Below the pieces are notes generated by a model. The model saw only the letters and a list, made by a program, of their open reading frames with translations, made no database searches and was not told the DNA's origin. DNA of 64,000 nucleotides from Candidatus Bathyarchaeota archaeon (GTDB taxonomy: Archaea > Thermoproteota > Bathyarchaeia > Bathyarchaeales > Bathycorpusculaceae), in the NCBI GenBank assembly GCA_026014745.1, contig JAOZHS010000003.1, positions 104,137-168,136 of the forward strand. The letters are read 5' to 3'. The position numbers and the translations under genes were made by a program. Of the stretch, positions 34,798 to 40,529 are shown piece after piece; within the stretch, counting starts at the first letter, position 1, and every line of letters starts with the position of its first letter.

Positions 34798-34966
34798 CAA
34801 TAACTTTTTAGTTGATTTCTTGAAGCACTTGATTGCGCCATTTCATCGCAGCTTTTTCTTTAATCATCACGCTTTTTATGCAACCTGTTGGGGACGGCGT
34901 GACCTGTGTCAGAAACATTTAAAACACTAAAGTTCATCTCTGGATGTGGTACTCCCAGAATTGTGT

Positions 34967-35040
34967 GCCGAGGTAGCTCAGCCTGGGAGAGCGCTCGGCT
35001 GAAGACCGAGTCGTCGCATGTTCAAACCCTGCCCTCGGCA
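34967..35040 (+). tRNA. tRNA-Phe (GAA), integration target
   Basis: Acceptor GCCGAGG/CCTCGGC, D-arm GCTC/GAGC, anticodon stem CTCGG/CCGAG with loop CTGAAGA (anticodon GAA), T-arm GCATG/CCTGC with TTCAAAC, discriminator A, encoded CCA at 35041-35043. The T-stem has a U-C mismatch at its second pair from the loop. The 3' end (35023-35043) is repeated exactly at 40452-40472, bounding the integrated element. Confidence 0.95.
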
Positions 35041-35043
35041 CCA
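35023..35043 (+). repeat. attL: tRNA-Phe 3' end direct repeat
   Basis: A 21-bp exact direct repeat of 40452-40472, ending in CTCGGCACCA. It covers part of the T-loop, the T-stem 3' side, the acceptor 3' strand and CCA. The next ~28 bp after each copy are also similar but not identical (both contain ATAAACCTGCG). Confidence 0.9.
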
Positions 35044-35086
35044 TCCCATTACTTTGGAATAAACCTGCGGCACCATTAAATAGGGT

Positions 35087-36262
35087 CTAAATGCGTTTTC
35101 GGAAGAACTGTAACCCATTCTTCTCGGTTACAAATTCAAAGCCAAGAGTTACCAAATCACATATTTCCTTGGGTGTCTGAGCAATCTTACAAACGTATTG
35201 ATTGTCCTCTTCAATGTTCAACAGTTGAGTATATAGCAACGTGTTTTTGATGTTCTTGTGTCCAAGGGTCTGCATGACGTGAAGGATGTCTTTTGTCTTG
35301 TGGTATTCAGTCGAACCTTTCCAATGTCGCAGTGTATGGAAGGTTATTTTATTAAGCCGTGGGTTTGCCAGTTTTTTTGCGAGCCTTTTACGTTGTTTTT
35401 CGTATGTTCGTCTAAGATTGTTTAGGTTTTTATAAGTGACGAAAATGCGTAGTTCTGTTTTTTCGATGTTATGAAGCATATCGAGCAGCTTGTTTTGCAT
35501 TCGGAAAACCCGTGGATTGCTGTTTTTTTCGGCTATAATGCTGATTGTGCGTCCTTCAAAGTCAATGTCTGTCCATTCTAAGCGGTAGATTTCGCCAGCC
35601 CTTGCACCCGTATCTTTGCCTATCTGTAGGAAAAGCGCTATTTCCTTGTTTACGCCAGCTATAACGTCATCGATTTCTCTTTCTTGGGGTATGAATGGTA
35701 GCTGTCTTATTGCTTTGTATCGTGGACGTTGCCATTTTAGTCCTACCCATTTTGCGTATAAGTCATATGCGAACACAGCGACTTCTTTCATCGAATCTTT
35801 CCATTTGTCCTGCTTTGCTATCGTTTCCTTGACGCTTTCAGGGTTGTTTAGGTCAGCACCAAGAGCTATGAGTCTGCGTAGCCTTACGCCTCTGCTTATA
35901 ATGGTTGTTTCTTTGTAGCCTTGCTTTTTCATATACCATAGAAATTCCAGTATCCGTGCTTCAGAGCTTGATTTGATAGTGGTTGATTCTCCCGCAACAG
36001 TCTTGTTTTCTGTTGCAGCGTCCAATTTTTTCGCCTCTAATATAGCGCATAATTGGCTGAATCCATTAGTGGCAATGTCTAGATTTAAGGCTTTAGGATT
36101 AATGCTGAAACGAAAACCACATTCTCGACAGATAAAACGTTGAATAGAACCAAGACCTGTCTCCCTTATACCATCTTTCCAATTTTTTGTGCTTTTACAA
36201 TTAGGGCATTCTCTACTTGCCTTTTCACCTCCACTCAGGTCTATTTGAGCAGTCAACTCCAA
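35087..36262 (-). CDS. Tyrosine recombinase / integrase with N-terminal zinc ribbon
   Basis: 391 residues. A zinc ribbon (Cys19, Cys22, Cys45, Cys48) opens the protein; residues ~100-185 are the core-binding domain. The catalytic residues are Arg221 (TGARAGEI), Lys246 (AEKNSNPR), His309 and Arg312 (HTLRH), His335 (LGHKN) and Tyr344 (LLYTQL). All are present, so the enzyme should be active. It would integrate the element at tRNA-Phe by recombining the 21-bp repeats. Unlike SSV-type integrases, the gene is not split by integration. Confidence 0.93.
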   Translation of the reverse strand: MELTAQIDLSGGEKASRECPNCKSTKNWKDGIRETGLGSIQRFICRECGFRFSINPKALNLDIATNGFSQLCAILEAKKLDAATENKTVAGESTTIKSSSEARILEFLWYMKKQGYKETTIISRGVRLRRLIALGADLNNPESVKETIAKQDKWKDSMKEVAVFAYDLYAKWVGLKWQRPRYKAIRQLPFIPQEREIDDVIAGVNKEIALFLQIGKDTGARAGEIYRLEWTDIDFEGRTISIIAEKNSNPRVFRMQNKLLDMLHNIEKTELRIFVTYKNLNNLRRTYEKQRKRLAKKLANPRLNKITFHTLRHWKGSTEYHKTKDILHVMQTLGHKNIKNTLLYTQLLNIEEDNQYVCKIAQTPKEICDLVTLGFEFVTEKNGLQFFRKRI

Positions 36263-36281
36263 GAACCTCGTAAGTCAGCGA

Positions 36282-36509
36282 TCAGCTAAACATTTCTTTG
36301 AATTTTTGCTCCTCATCTGAGTCCAGACGATACCCAAAACTTTCCTCAATTGAAAAACACAGGATTTTTAGAAGCAAGTAGATTTCAATAGGGTCATCGA
36401 TTTTTCTAAATAAGAGCACTTGAACTTTTTTACCTATTCGACAGAGTTTGTCGAAGTCTATGTCAGTTACTTCTATGTCCGTCTGGTTTGGCGTTGATTG
36501 GTTTTTCAT
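36282..36509 (-). CDS. Small unrecognised protein of the element
   Basis: 75 residues, acidic, mostly helical in the second half (PIEIYLLLKILCFSIEESFGYRL). It lies 20 bp upstream of the integrase and co-directional with it, so probably in the same transcript. It could be a recombination directionality or regulatory factor, but no motif supports that. Confidence 0.55.
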   Translation of the reverse strand: MKNQSTPNQTDIEVTDIDFDKLCRIGKKVQVLLFRKIDDPIEIYLLLKILCFSIEESFGYRLDSDEEQKFKEMFS

Positions 36510-36600
36510 TGGTAATTCTCCAGTGAAGTTTTTAGGGATAAAACAGGCATATTAACGGGCAAGGAAAATATCAGAGTAAATTTACACAGGCAGTTTGTTT

Positions 36601-37296
36601 ATGACCTCAAAGGACGAAAAAGATGACGCACTCTTAGAAAAGTATGAACATCTTGATTCTGGTTGTAAGAACATCTTTTTTGCATTACGGATTAAGGGAG
36701 CCCTTCGTCATGATATGTTGTTGGATGCACTCAAATTTCTTGATATTAAGATGTCAAGACCGAATTTGGATATTCATTTAAAACATTTGGTTGATTCAGG
36801 GTTAGTTGAGTGCAAGAAGGGATTTCAATTTTCCGAGTACGCTTTAACTAAGGATATTTATGAATTGGTGCGACCTGCTACACTTGAAGAAGTCAAAAAG
36901 CAATTAGATTTGGATTATAAAAACCAGAAACATTACCCTAAACGCCTTAGGGAACACAGATTAACTGCTCGTCAGAGGCGAGAGCTCTTTGAACATTACT
37001 CAGATGAGCAAATTGATAAAAGGGTCAATGAAGAGGCTGAGTATCTTGTTATTTCAAGCCTTGTTGAGTTGATGGAACTTGTTACTTATGACTTGGGCAA
37101 GAAAAGGTTTGGTGATGATAACGCTTTTTGGAAGTTGATTGGGAACCCGATGTATCGGATGCATGAGAAATCTATTGTTACGAATTGTAGAGATTGTCCT
37201 CGCTATAAGGAGAAGTTATTCAGAAAAATTGAGAAAATGTATGAAGAGTTTAATGAGAAATACAATAAAATCATGCCAAAAGGCGGAATCCCTTAG
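36601..37296 (+). CDS. Winged-helix protein of the element
   Basis: 231 residues from the ATG at 36601 (a TTG two codons earlier is possible). Residues ~20-95 form a winged helix (LRHDMLLDALKFLDIKMSRPNLDIHLKHLVDSGLVECKKGFQFSEYALT). The C-terminal half is basic and helical, ending in a Cys pair (NCRDCPRYKEKLFRKIEK) and a coiled coil. It is divergent from the integrase, so it is a candidate repressor or activator of integration or copy-number genes. Confidence 0.72.
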   Translation: MTSKDEKDDALLEKYEHLDSGCKNIFFALRIKGALRHDMLLDALKFLDIKMSRPNLDIHLKHLVDSGLVECKKGFQFSEYALTKDIYELVRPATLEEVKKQLDLDYKNQKHYPKRLREHRLTARQRRELFEHYSDEQIDKRVNEEAEYLVISSLVELMELVTYDLGKKRFGDDNAFWKLIGNPMYRMHEKSIVTNCRDCPRYKEKLFRKIEKMYEEFNEKYNKIMPKGGIP

Positions 37297-37519
37297 TCTT
37301 TTCTAAGCTCGGCGTGCTTCGCCCGCCTCGAACGTTCCAGACGAATGATGGTTAAGCGCCTCGGTCGTCGTAGCGGATGACCCCACCCTAAAGGGTACCC
37401 CCCCGCACTCCTCCCTCGGCGCAGTTTGGGTGATCGACCCATTTGGGACATTTATTGTTCTTAGGGTCACAAATCTGTTTATGATTGATTCTTCAGAGTT
37501 TTTTCAGCATCTATAGTGT
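37297..37519. other. GC-rich hairpin-bearing non-coding block, possible replication origin
   Basis: The only GC-rich non-coding stretch in an otherwise AT-rich element. It contains short inverted repeats ACCCT-AA-AGGGT (37385-37396) and TGGGT-GATCG-ACCCA (37427-37441) and a C7 run. Its position between convergent genes suits a double-strand origin for the HUH Rep. No nick site is proven. Confidence 0.35.
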
Positions 37520-38398
37520 TTAATTATCATTTTGCTTTGTTGTTGTGGGCGGAACAACTTGTGGTTTTTCTAATGTATTAATTAAATCAGCTACCACAGT
37601 ATTTGCTTTTTTTTGTTTTTCAGTTAAATTCTTCAATTCTTTCAGATGTTGGCGCGGTTCCTTATTTTTTGTCAAAGTACGTGAAAAATCCGACGCCCAG
37701 TCTGGTCTTGAACAAAGGAGTAGAATCTCATTGAATTCTCCAGTATTATCTAAAATATCTTCTTCGTCAAGCGTGACAAAAATTACCCACTTATTTTTAT
37801 TGAATTGAAACTGAAAAGCAGATGATAAATGTTCAACGTCATCAGTATTTTTTATTCCTGCACAAGCATATAATAAAGTCTTAATTGCTTCGAGTGGTTC
37901 AATATTCTCGCAACGCATGCCTCTAAATGGACGTTCTAATGCATTTCTCTTTATTGATAATTCAGCACTAATTGCGCCAAGGAAAACGTCTAACGTGTAT
38001 TCCTTTCCATCCTCGATTGAATGTACTTGATTAGCGACATAACTTTCTATTGTTCCAAGGATTTCATTCTGTAAATTGGATTTTCTATAGGGTAGTGCTC
38101 TAAATTCTTTTTTTGCTAATGTAAAAAACTCTGCGAAAATTAAAGCGTCCTTATTTGTTATTGCTTTTTTACCCTTCTCTTCTAAAAAGGGCCTCAATTT
38201 TAATTGGAAATTATTAATTATTGCCTTAACAGACTTATCAATTAATTGGAACCCCTCTGCTTTTACAGATGACGAAATCATACATTGCGCTGAATTCTCT
38301 TTTAAAAATTCTTGGCATTCTTTATCCCTTGATTCTAAGGGCTGTGGGAGTAGCACACATGAATCAATAAAGAACCCTTCAACTTGCCCGAATGGTAT
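37520..38398 (-). CDS. PIN-domain nuclease-like protein, apparent AUA start
   Basis: About 292 residues if started at the ATA at 38398. All four PIN acidic positions are visible: Asp12 (GFFIDSCVLL), Glu48 (SSSVKAEGFQLI), Asp186/187 (NTDDVEHLSSAF) and Asp211 (IFVTLDEEDIL). The first standard start codon in frame (GTG at 38356) would remove the first strand and catalytic Asp12. The ATA is preceded by GGGGGAT (38410-38404) with a 5-nt gap and overlaps the stop of the upstream gene, suggesting translational coupling. Likely an RNase or DNase acting with the upstream helical protein; longer than VapC toxins. Confidence 0.68.
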   Translation of the reverse strand: MPFGQVEGFFIDSCVLLPQPLESRDKECQEFLKENSAQCMISSSVKAEGFQLIDKSVKAIINNFQLKLRPFLEEKGKKAITNKDALIFAEFFTLAKKEFRALPYRKSNLQNEILGTIESYVANQVHSIEDGKEYTLDVFLGAISAELSIKRNALERPFRGMRCENIEPLEAIKTLLYACAGIKNTDDVEHLSSAFQFQFNKNKWVIFVTLDEEDILDNTGEFNEILLLCSRPDWASDFSRTLTKNKEPRQHLKELKNLTEKQKKANTVVADLINTLEKPQVVPPTTTKQNDN

Positions 38399-39291
38399 TA
38401 GCTATCCCCCATTTCTGAAATGGCTCCTGCAATTTTGCTAATAGTCCTAATGCCATCATCTTCATAAGGAGCAACATGTTCAAAAGGAAGATTGCTATCT
38501 ACCATTGGCTCGAGTTTTTCTAAAACAGCGTATATTGCTGTCACAAAATTATCTAATTCTTTTAGCTGTAAATATTCTGTCTTGATTTTTTTTACTTTTA
38601 AGATTTCATCAACTTTTTCACAATTACAAAAATCAATATACCAAAATAGCTTAATTCGGTTATCTTCAAGCCTATCGATATCGTCGAATTGCTCAACCCA
38701 CTTATTGTGAATATTGCATAAGTGCTCAAATTTCTTTTTGTTATCCCTGTTTATTAATAACTGAACACGTTCTCTTCGAAGATATTTCCCGTAAAGGTGC
38801 AAATAATTTAATTGAAGAAGTATGGCTTTTTCTATTGCTTCAATATAACATAACGGCAAATCAGAATTGTAATAACTTCGCCATAATTCAAAAAGCTCAG
38901 AATTCAGTCGGTTACTGATTAGTTGATTTTGTTCGAAAACTTTGGCAAAATAATTAATTACATATCTGCTAAAATCTTTCGTGTACTTTTTGATAGTAAC
39001 GGTTTTCTCAAATAATTCATCATTTTCTAAATTGCTTTTTACTTTACTTGCCATTTTTTCCTTAATTTCAGCTTTGGTTAAAACCCGTAATGGCGGTAAT
39101 TGATCTACAAGGGCTAAATTAGCGGATAATGTACTTGATAACGCCTCTTGGTAGTTTTTAAAATCTGTAGCAATTTCTTGAGCTTTGTAATCGAATTTTT
39201 CGAAAGCCGATAAGCTCTTTGCACCAATGCTTATATCTTCAGAAATCTGCTCCTTGTTCAATGAAAGCATTGCTTCTACCAAACGACCCAC
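38398..39291 (-). CDS. Helical protein paired with the PIN protein
   Basis: 297 residues, almost wholly helical with coiled-coil potential (KVKSNLENDELFEKTVTIKKY; LRRERVQLLINRDNKKKF). No signal peptide, no membrane helix and no recognised family. AT-rich. The TAA stop overlaps the apparent start of the PIN gene by one base, so the two are made together. It may be an antitoxin or regulatory scaffold for the nuclease; this is inference from context. Confidence 0.65.
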   Translation of the reverse strand: MGRLVEAMLSLNKEQISEDISIGAKSLSAFEKFDYKAQEIATDFKNYQEALSSTLSANLALVDQLPPLRVLTKAEIKEKMASKVKSNLENDELFEKTVTIKKYTKDFSRYVINYFAKVFEQNQLISNRLNSELFELWRSYYNSDLPLCYIEAIEKAILLQLNYLHLYGKYLRRERVQLLINRDNKKKFEHLCNIHNKWVEQFDDIDRLEDNRIKLFWYIDFCNCEKVDEILKVKKIKTEYLQLKELDNFVTAIYAVLEKLEPMVDSNLPFEHVAPYEDDGIRTISKIAGAISEMGDS

Positions 39292-39422
39292 TTCAGCAAG
39301 TTACAAATTAACTTTTGCACTCCTGCTATTTATAGTTTGATGCGTTACTAAATGATGTTTAATATAAACAATATTCTTATCAATTTATTTCATCTTATAA
39401 TTGATATTTGACTTTACAACAA

Positions 39423-40367
39423 TTAGTAAAAAGAGTTTTTCTTTAATATTTCTGATAATAGGGTTAATTGATTACTATTCAAAGCAACAAACCACCGTCC
39501 ATTATCAATTTTTAGATCTAAGCCATTGATAAAACCAAGCAGGTGATACGATTCTTCAGGGATGATTCCTCCTAAAAGTGTTGTTTGTGCTGTTGATTTG
39601 TTTGAATTATGCAAATCCTTTATCAAGTCGGCAAGCGCCTTACGGAAAGTCCCACTAACTGCAAAGGCGCGTTTCCTATAAACCCAGCAAAGAGCTAATG
39701 TTTTTAGTCCTTTAGAATCCGAATTTTCAAAGTCTATACTTTTTAGAAGGTACTTTTTGAGATAGGCGAATCCACCAGCTAAGGAACTCATGGCTTTAAC
39801 GTCAACGTTGCTATGCCAGCCTTGTGCAATAATGTCTTTTTCCTGAACTCTGAATTGACCTTTGTTGTCTCTGAAAACCTTGAAAGAATATTCTTGGAAC
39901 AATAAAATGCAATGGATATGTGGATAACCGTTTTCAAAAGACTCAAACACCCGACAGGTAGAAACCTTTCCAAAGCTGCGTCTAACATACGACATGAAAG
40001 CGTTAAATTCTATACCTATTTGCTCCCATGCTTCCTTGTATGAACAGAGTTTAGTATCATAGGTTAGCGTAGTCCAAAGAGCATAGGTTGTCTTGTCGTT
40101 TCTTCTGTCGTTGGGGTTGAAGAATTCTAATTGCTCTGACTTATGACTAAGACCAACAAACCGTTGCTTAACCCTATGTCGGTAAATATCATTTCCACGT
40201 TTAGAGCATTTAATCGCAAAAACATCATTTTTCCACTTCTCCTTATTCCATTTAGAAAGAATCATGTAGGTGCTTACGGAAACCCATTCTTTGTATTTCT
40301 CAACAATTTCTTCGACAGTGTAGTTTTCTTTTATGTAGTCTTTGAGGAATCCTCGAAGTGATGGCAA
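39423..40367 (-). CDS. HUH rolling-circle replication initiator (Rep)
   Basis: 314 residues. Motif 1 ALWTTLTY (residues ~96-103), the metal-binding HUH motif GYPHIHCILLF (His150, His152), and motif 3 AYLKKYLLKS with Tyr202 and Tyr206, one being the nicking tyrosine. A helical N-terminal region (1-45) precedes the nuclease. It lies beside attR. It would nick the element's origin to start replication of the excised circle. Confidence 0.88.
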   Translation of the reverse strand: MPSLRGFLKDYIKENYTVEEIVEKYKEWVSVSTYMILSKWNKEKWKNDVFAIKCSKRGNDIYRHRVKQRFVGLSHKSEQLEFFNPNDRRNDKTTYALWTTLTYDTKLCSYKEAWEQIGIEFNAFMSYVRRSFGKVSTCRVFESFENGYPHIHCILLFQEYSFKVFRDNKGQFRVQEKDIIAQGWHSNVDVKAMSSLAGGFAYLKKYLLKSIDFENSDSKGLKTLALCWVYRKRAFAVSGTFRKALADLIKDLHNSNKSTAQTTLLGGIIPEESYHLLGFINGLDLKIDNGRWFVALNSNQLTLLSEILKKNSFY

Positions 40368-40451
40368 AGGTTAGGCATAGTAGATGTCCTAATTTGCATT
40401 AGCACGAAAAAAGGGAAGATTTGCGGGAGATATCGCCATCTGTCTTAACTC

Positions 40452-40472
40452 CAAACCCTGCCCTCGGCACCA
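40452..40472 (+). repeat. attR: second copy of the tRNA-Phe 3' end
   Basis: Exact 21-bp match to 35023-35043. There is no complete tRNA here: the sequence upstream does not continue the cloverleaf. It marks the right boundary of the integrated element. Confidence 0.9.
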
Positions 40473-40529
40473 ACCATTAATTTTAGATAAACCTGCGACA
40501 CTTTCTAGAGTTAGCGTAAAAATTTAGGA

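Follow-up and report, generated by a model that had tools for sequence, protein, structure and literature searches.

Our analysis of a 64,000-bp stretch of DNA from a Bathyarchaeia archaeon (hereafter the window; contig JAOZHS010000003.1, positions 104,137 to 168,136) indicated that about 5.4 kb of DNA of low guanine-plus-cytosine (GC) content, inserted in a tRNA-Phe gene, is very probably an integrated rolling-circle plasmid and a member of a modular Bathyarchaeia family. Part of this reading, and put forward just as firmly, is the view that the family exchanges its target tRNA (via the integrase clade), its type of replication initiator (Rep) and its cargo on a shared plan, as judged from the sequences. 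An initial annotation of the same DNA had proposed an integrated rolling-circle plasmid, and this proposal was strengthened by the exact attachment (att) repeats, by unoccupied and decayed sites in relatives, by a second element of like design in a tRNA-Leu gene of the same genome and by a relative with the excised layout. The membership in a modular family and the neighbouring scar of an older insertion had been missed there.

34967-35043, plus strand: tRNA-Phe (GAA), the integration target, left whole by the insertion (ARAGORN; Rfam tRNA, 56 bits)
35023-35043: attL core, a 21-bp direct repeat formed by the last 21 nt of tRNA-Phe, CAAACCCTGCCCTCGGCACCA
40452-40472: attR core, an exact 21-bp copy of the tRNA-Phe 3′ end
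35087-36262, minus strand: tyrosine integrase of the tRNA-Phe clade, 391 aa, with an N-terminal zinc ribbon (C19xxC22...C45xxC48)
39423-40367, minus strand: HUH Rep, 314 aa (PF23343, REP_ORF2-G2P)

A 21-mer would be matched by chance within 16 kb with a probability of about 1e-8, and a search of the 2.7-Mb genome with window positions 34900-35043 returned the attR copy as the only further copy of the tRNA-Phe end (G000:C3:144588-144608, 100%). The GC content was 36.9% in the element and 47.0% in its flanks. From left to right, the gene order was integrase, a 75-aa open reading frame (ORF), a winged-helix-like gene, a GC-rich segment, a PIN-like gene, its partner and Rep. The components named in the initial annotation, namely exact 21-bp tRNA-Phe repeats enclosing the element, an intact tyrosine integrase with an N-terminal zinc ribbon, an HUH Rep with all motifs, a winged-helix protein, an absence of structural virus genes and a bathyarchaeal host, were all borne out by our searches. 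The integrase matched PF00589 (E=9e-18), with all catalytic motifs (R-K-HxxR-H-Y) present between residues 219 and 345 and the two CxxC pairs at 19 and 45. The Rep scored 30.7 bits against PF23343, above the Pfam cut-off of 27.8 bits, and contained TLTYD as motif 1, the HUH motif PHIHC at 149-153 and YLKKYLLK, of the YxxKY type, at 202-209; the Rep of locus L029 has PDIHC where the window Rep has PHIHC. Of 163 genomes in the order, 19 had relatives of this Rep, most of them fragmentary, and the archaeal ones all came from Ca. Bathyarchaeota metagenome-assembled genomes.

The choice of target tRNA was traced on a tree of 24 integrases of known target. The six tRNA-Phe integrases grouped as a clade (100/99), as did the four tRNA-Leu integrases (100/100), and the eight target groups required 7 changes of target on the tree, the minimum possible, against 15.6 in shuffles. 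This clustering indicates that target choice goes with the integrase lineage. Most of the integrase genes examined converge on a tRNA gene whose 3′ end lies within 24-73 bp.

The shared plan is illustrated by a second element of this genome (6,128 bp; L144:4646-10773), which is flanked by exact 23-bp repeats of the tRNA-Leu(CAG) 3′ end. Its integrase is related (53-54%), and its winged-helix protein is far closer.

36595-37296, plus strand: winged-helix-like regulator, 233 aa, 91% identical in the second element and 50% in the element of genome G091

The profile matches of this regulator were weak taken alone (HTH_5, E=0.0055; Csa3 winged helix-turn-helix, E=0.0018), yet the protein is conserved in the two other elements. 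The leader beside the far repeat of the second element was identical to the window leader at 65 of 83 positions, with a score of 109 against 47 for the best of 1000 shuffles. The Rep position holds a 384-aa protein with no Pfam match, whose best plasmid match was the Rep of Thermotoga petrophila pRKU1 (E=9e-3), and the cargo comprises a TPR protein, a 163-aa protein and a two-transmembrane protein with weak SLATT-like scores. Comparison of the two elements thus showed a common regulator and leader, with Rep, target and cargo differing within one genome. An OLD-like ATPase (L144:2812-4452) considered as cargo was rejected, as it lies outside the 23-bp repeats. This OLD/AriA-like gene (on G000:C1) stands directly past the far repeat and is perhaps the leftover of an earlier insertion. 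A third element, in G091 (L030), has an integrase, the winged-helix protein, a Rep of 33% identity and a cargo slot with a short Argonaute and a nuclease-domain partner; this cargo matched the PADLOC models pAgo_I (E=8e-147) and Aga_REase-PNTD1-PNTD2 (E=2e-34) and thus represents a short prokaryotic Argonaute (pAgo) system. No direct att repeat was found around the G091 element.

Joining the ends of the window element at the repeat predicts a circle with integrase, attP and Rep in a row and 148 bp from the integrase stop to the Rep start. The contig JANKMU010000038.1 (L158, 5,642 bp), from the same enrichment as Bathyarchaeum M17C, has this layout, with a zinc-ribbon integrase at 705-1874, a spacer of 138 bp, a Rep at 2013-2957 (54% identical to the window Rep), three cargo ORFs, a small nuclease and a regulator. 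Within the spacer lies a 32-bp match (30/32) to the 3′ end and trailer of the tRNA-Ser(TGA) of Bathyarchaeum M17C-01. The integrase-attP-Rep order like that of the predicted circle shows that a related element was assembled in its excised arrangement. L158 is filed in the bin 'Tenericutes M17C-02'; because its integrase, Rep and attP are bathyarchaeal and both bins share the M17C label, it was probably misbinned in the public genome.

These layouts are consistent with a cycle in which the integrase would recombine the two cores, restoring an intact tRNA-Phe gene and freeing a circle with integrase, attP and Rep in a row. Rep would then nick an origin, perhaps in the conserved leader beside attP, and drive rolling-circle replication, and the circle would re-enter the chromosome through attP x attB recombination. 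Excision and copy number are probably under the control of the winged-helix protein, and the PIN-like protein and its helical partner would be cargo, most likely a defence or addiction module. For the window genome we infer the excision, the nicking by Rep, the winged-helix regulation and the function of the cargo from sequence.

Other members of the order were consulted for the state of the tRNA-Phe site, where the gene order in relatives is tRNA-Val, tRNA-Phe, nitroreductase and DUF429. The initial annotation had proposed a search for an empty site, and several relatives indeed have tRNA-Phe followed directly by chromosomal neighbours: the nitroreductase begins 632 bp after the tRNA-Phe start in G049, and DUF429 at 726 in G061. 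No match to the element's genes was found at the tRNA-Phe site in G049, G061, G068 and G050. With several sites unoccupied, fixation of the same genes in all relatives, which the annotation had named as evidence against its own reading, was not seen. G060 carries at its tRNA-Phe an open integrase frame, 78% identical, together with a Rep relic, and Rep relics are also present in G047 and G057. By eye, the stretch that follows tRNA-Phe in G059 and G047 is almost identical to the end of the integrase gene of G060 and likely represents an integrase relic. The occurrence of occupied, empty and scarred sites in relatives points to the tRNA-Phe site as a hotspot.

Beyond both repeats, an imperfect similarity missed by the initial annotation continues for 28 bp (82%).

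35046-35073: left arm beside the core, element-borne, TTTGGAATAAACCTGCG, a putative integrase arm site; tandem at other integrase-bearing tRNA-Phe sites
40474-40501: right arm copy, beyond attR in the chromosome, taken to be a scar left by an earlier element (3/16 mismatches; about 0.05% of random sequences are as good)

The arm motif, TTGGAATAAACCTGCG, follows tRNA-Phe at most integrase-bearing or scarred sites, in some of them in tandem, and is missing at clean sites; the exceptions to this rule are G058, G040 and G043, where an integrase is present, and G057, with a Rep relic only. The similarity was also considered as a native tRNA trailer, an idea that was dropped: sites lacking integrases or relics showed 5-8 mismatches out of 16, against 0-3 at most sites with integrases or integrase relics. 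The sequence suggests that the right arm copy is probably the scar of an earlier related element at this site.

Several observations weigh against the main reading. The divergence of the integrase from its G060 counterpart (78% identity) is close to that of chromosomal neighbours (nitroreductase, 75%; DUF429, 61%), so that an old insertion passed on by descent and then decaying is possible for the pair formed by the window and G060. The PIN-like cargo gene has no ATG; its ATG start is now ATA, and the description 'apparently functional' in the initial annotation goes further than the evidence. The ends of the L158 contig do not overlap, its circularity is inferred, and the same layout would be seen in a tandem array; the coverage given in its record title is low (4.7) and gives no pointer to a high copy number. 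The leader is common to the second element, whose Rep shows no detectable similarity, and may therefore be a promoter and not an origin. The first two of these points, together with the integrase and Rep relic at the same site in G060 and the relics there in G047, G057 and G059, would suit an old immobile insertion that entered tRNA-Phe in an ancestor of the genus and was inherited vertically with decay, the window copy being less decayed. We regard this history as unlikely. The 21-bp repeats are still exact, the integrase and Rep frames are intact and the GC content lies 10 points below that of the flanks; the sites of G049, G061, G068 and G050 lack any match to the element's genes, and the presence of an arm on either side of the core is better explained by two insertions in succession than by a single one.

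An origin from viruses was weighed on similar grounds. In a provirus remnant or virus satellite, the integrase and Rep would belong to a virus that has lost its capsid genes or borrows them. ORF2/G2P phage replication proteins gave the Pfam family of Rep its name, two weak Rep matches (E=0.07) fell in Microviridae, and the compactness and possible defence cargo of the element are reminiscent of satellites in general. Profile searches of the window element found no virus structural genes, however, and no gene for a structural, portal, terminase or coat protein was recognised in it, the second element, the G091 element or L158. IMG/VR contained no relative of Rep, whether searched with Rep alone or with an alignment, and the closest match in a named archaeal replicon was to a plasmid, pTP2. 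A viral origin therefore appears highly improbable, and an integrated plasmid is the reading that we retain.

The place of the replication origin concerns one step of the proposed cycle.

40406-40434, minus strand: conserved leader motif between attP and Rep (TATCTCCCGCA..TTCCCTTTTTT, Rep strand), a candidate double-strand origin or promoter
37300-37450: GC-rich non-coding segment 3′ of the winged-helix gene, with two conserved modules found also in related elements and relics

From its sequence, the leader region (40368-40451) is about equally likely to be an origin or a promoter. The leader motif is kept among several Reps of 33-68% identity, and the recurrence of TCTCCCG upstream of Reps so far apart speaks against a promoter alone. 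The similar leader ahead of the Rep-position protein of the second element, which has no detectable similarity to the window Rep, favours one, and the true origin could then lie elsewhere, for example in the GC-rich segment, which occupies the same place (3′ of the regulator) in four elements and could form hairpins. Host genomes also have modules of this segment at a distance from Rep, which speaks against an origin there, and we give a promoter-only leader with a distant origin slightly less than an even chance. The segment could be a hairpin mobile unit, a noncoding RNA or a single-strand origin; it matched no Rfam RNA, the tRNA being the sole Rfam match. One module, GCTCGGCG..CGCCTCGAACGTTCCAGACGA, recurs in G091, G060, G061, G094 and G038. 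The other, TAGCGGATGACCCC..CCCCCCGCA, is found in G057, G060, G047, G046 and G049, often flanked by the inverted repeat GCAACTGACA..TGTCAGTTGC. In G057 (L036/L107), 51 nt of the segment, 98% identical, lie within about 100 bp of tRNA-Phe, with most of the element gone.

The cargo of the window element is a pair of overlapping genes.

37520-38398, minus strand: PIN-like nuclease (cargo), 292 codons, with invariant acidic residues
38398-39291, minus strand: second cargo protein and partner to the PIN-like one, 297 aa, all-helical by a low-confidence prediction

Among seven PIN-like homologues, D12, D187 and T209xD211 were invariant and E48 was present in most, which is the pattern of PIN nucleases (TxD motif). 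The window protein matched no PIN family profile; weak matches were obtained for the homologue L178 only (PIN_12, E=0.02; TIGR00305, E=0.017), and a PF01850 search of the genome yielded no PIN protein for comparison. The ATA that stands at the conserved start position, ATG in relatives, overlaps the stop of the partner gene (TAATA), and the next start, a GTG at 38356, would remove the motif-I Asp. The gene may be silenced, may use a rare start codon or may contain a sequencing error. No protein family was found for the partner; a match to the amylase 3n8t (E=0.0019) covered a short helical stretch and was judged to be due to chance. AlphaFold models of both proteins were poor (mean predicted local distance difference test score, 54), profile searches of PDB gave no convincing match for either, and IMG/VR held no relative of the PIN-like protein. 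The two genes occur together in G075, G033 and G067, as fragments in G065 and in more distant form in G178, G063 and G247, and window-type Rep was not found in any of these genomes. Distant homologues of the pair at L177, L178 and L179, in other Bathyarchaeia, likewise consist of two genes in constant order. Because the pair turns up in varied genomic contexts, and because G091 has an Argonaute system in that slot, we lean towards a defence or addiction module.

Among known systems, the best plasmid match to the window Rep was a protein of Thermococcus prieurii pTP2 (26.7% identity over 55%, E=3e-3), which is marginal. This mini-plasmid of 2,038 bp has a replication origin described as rolling-circle (PMC5988781). 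It resembles the window element as a small archaeal rolling-circle replicon; however, it occurs as a free plasmid of one third the length, and no integrase is annotated on it. The 846-bp plasmids of Thermotoga petrophila (pRKU1) and Thermotoga sp. RQ7, the best plasmid match of the Rep-position protein in the second element (23.8%, E=9e-3), are bacterial, carry a single gene, lack an integrase and are unlike the window Rep. Thaumarchaeal cryptic integrated elements have tRNA-targeting tyrosine integrases and short direct repeats (median, 17 bp), and one of them, NitAQ6f-E2, encodes a rolling-circle Rep of the SNJ1/euryarchaeal plasmid family (PMC6563490). Elements of this type share with ours, on a comparison by description only, the tRNA-targeting tyrosine integrase and short repeats, and belong to another archaeal group. 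The short pAgo systems with a nuclease partner are matched by the cargo of the G091 relative only and not by the window element.

Archaeal integrative plasmids of the pNOB8 type are large and conjugative, and their integrase gene stays whole after integration, with the att site outside the gene. The window element similarly has an intact integrase beside att, and differs in its size of 5.4 kb and in having no recognisable transfer genes. Our best reading is that an integrative rolling-circle plasmid is a known kind of element and that the window element belongs to a new, modular family of them in Bathyarchaeia, with interchangeable Rep, target and cargo. A literature search, with most subscription journals outside its reach, found viruses and no small or integrated plasmids described for Bathyarchaeia.

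A bolder proposal, which we consider doubtful, is that minimal integrative rolling-circle elements of about 5.4-6.2 kb form a separate class in Bathyarchaeia and act as small defence shuttles. A fixed regulator-Rep slot would take interchangeable two- or three-gene defence modules, tentatively a short Argonaute with a nuclease, the PIN/helical pair, a SLATT-like two-transmembrane protein with a TPR protein, and TIGR04255 with a nuclease; the PIN/helical pair would then be an undescribed defence or addiction system. Bathyarchaeia are among the most abundant uncultured archaeal groups, and we know of no genetic tool for them. A vector could naturally be developed from a replicon of 5.4 kb that brings its integrase and Rep and has a defined attB in a tRNA gene, and a relative seems to be present in free form in the cultured Bathyarchaeum M17C enrichment. 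Across the family there is an exchange of integrase specificity, replication protein and cargo on one small backbone, with a short Argonaute in one member.

Two further features were noted.

36282-36509, minus strand: 75-aa ORF, with no match in the related loci compared

At L118 (G062:C1:818000 onward), ARAGORN reported no tRNA-Phe and the DNA match was stretched from 135 to 162 bases (G062:C1:819632-819793); the tRNA-Phe gene of G062 possibly contains an intron.

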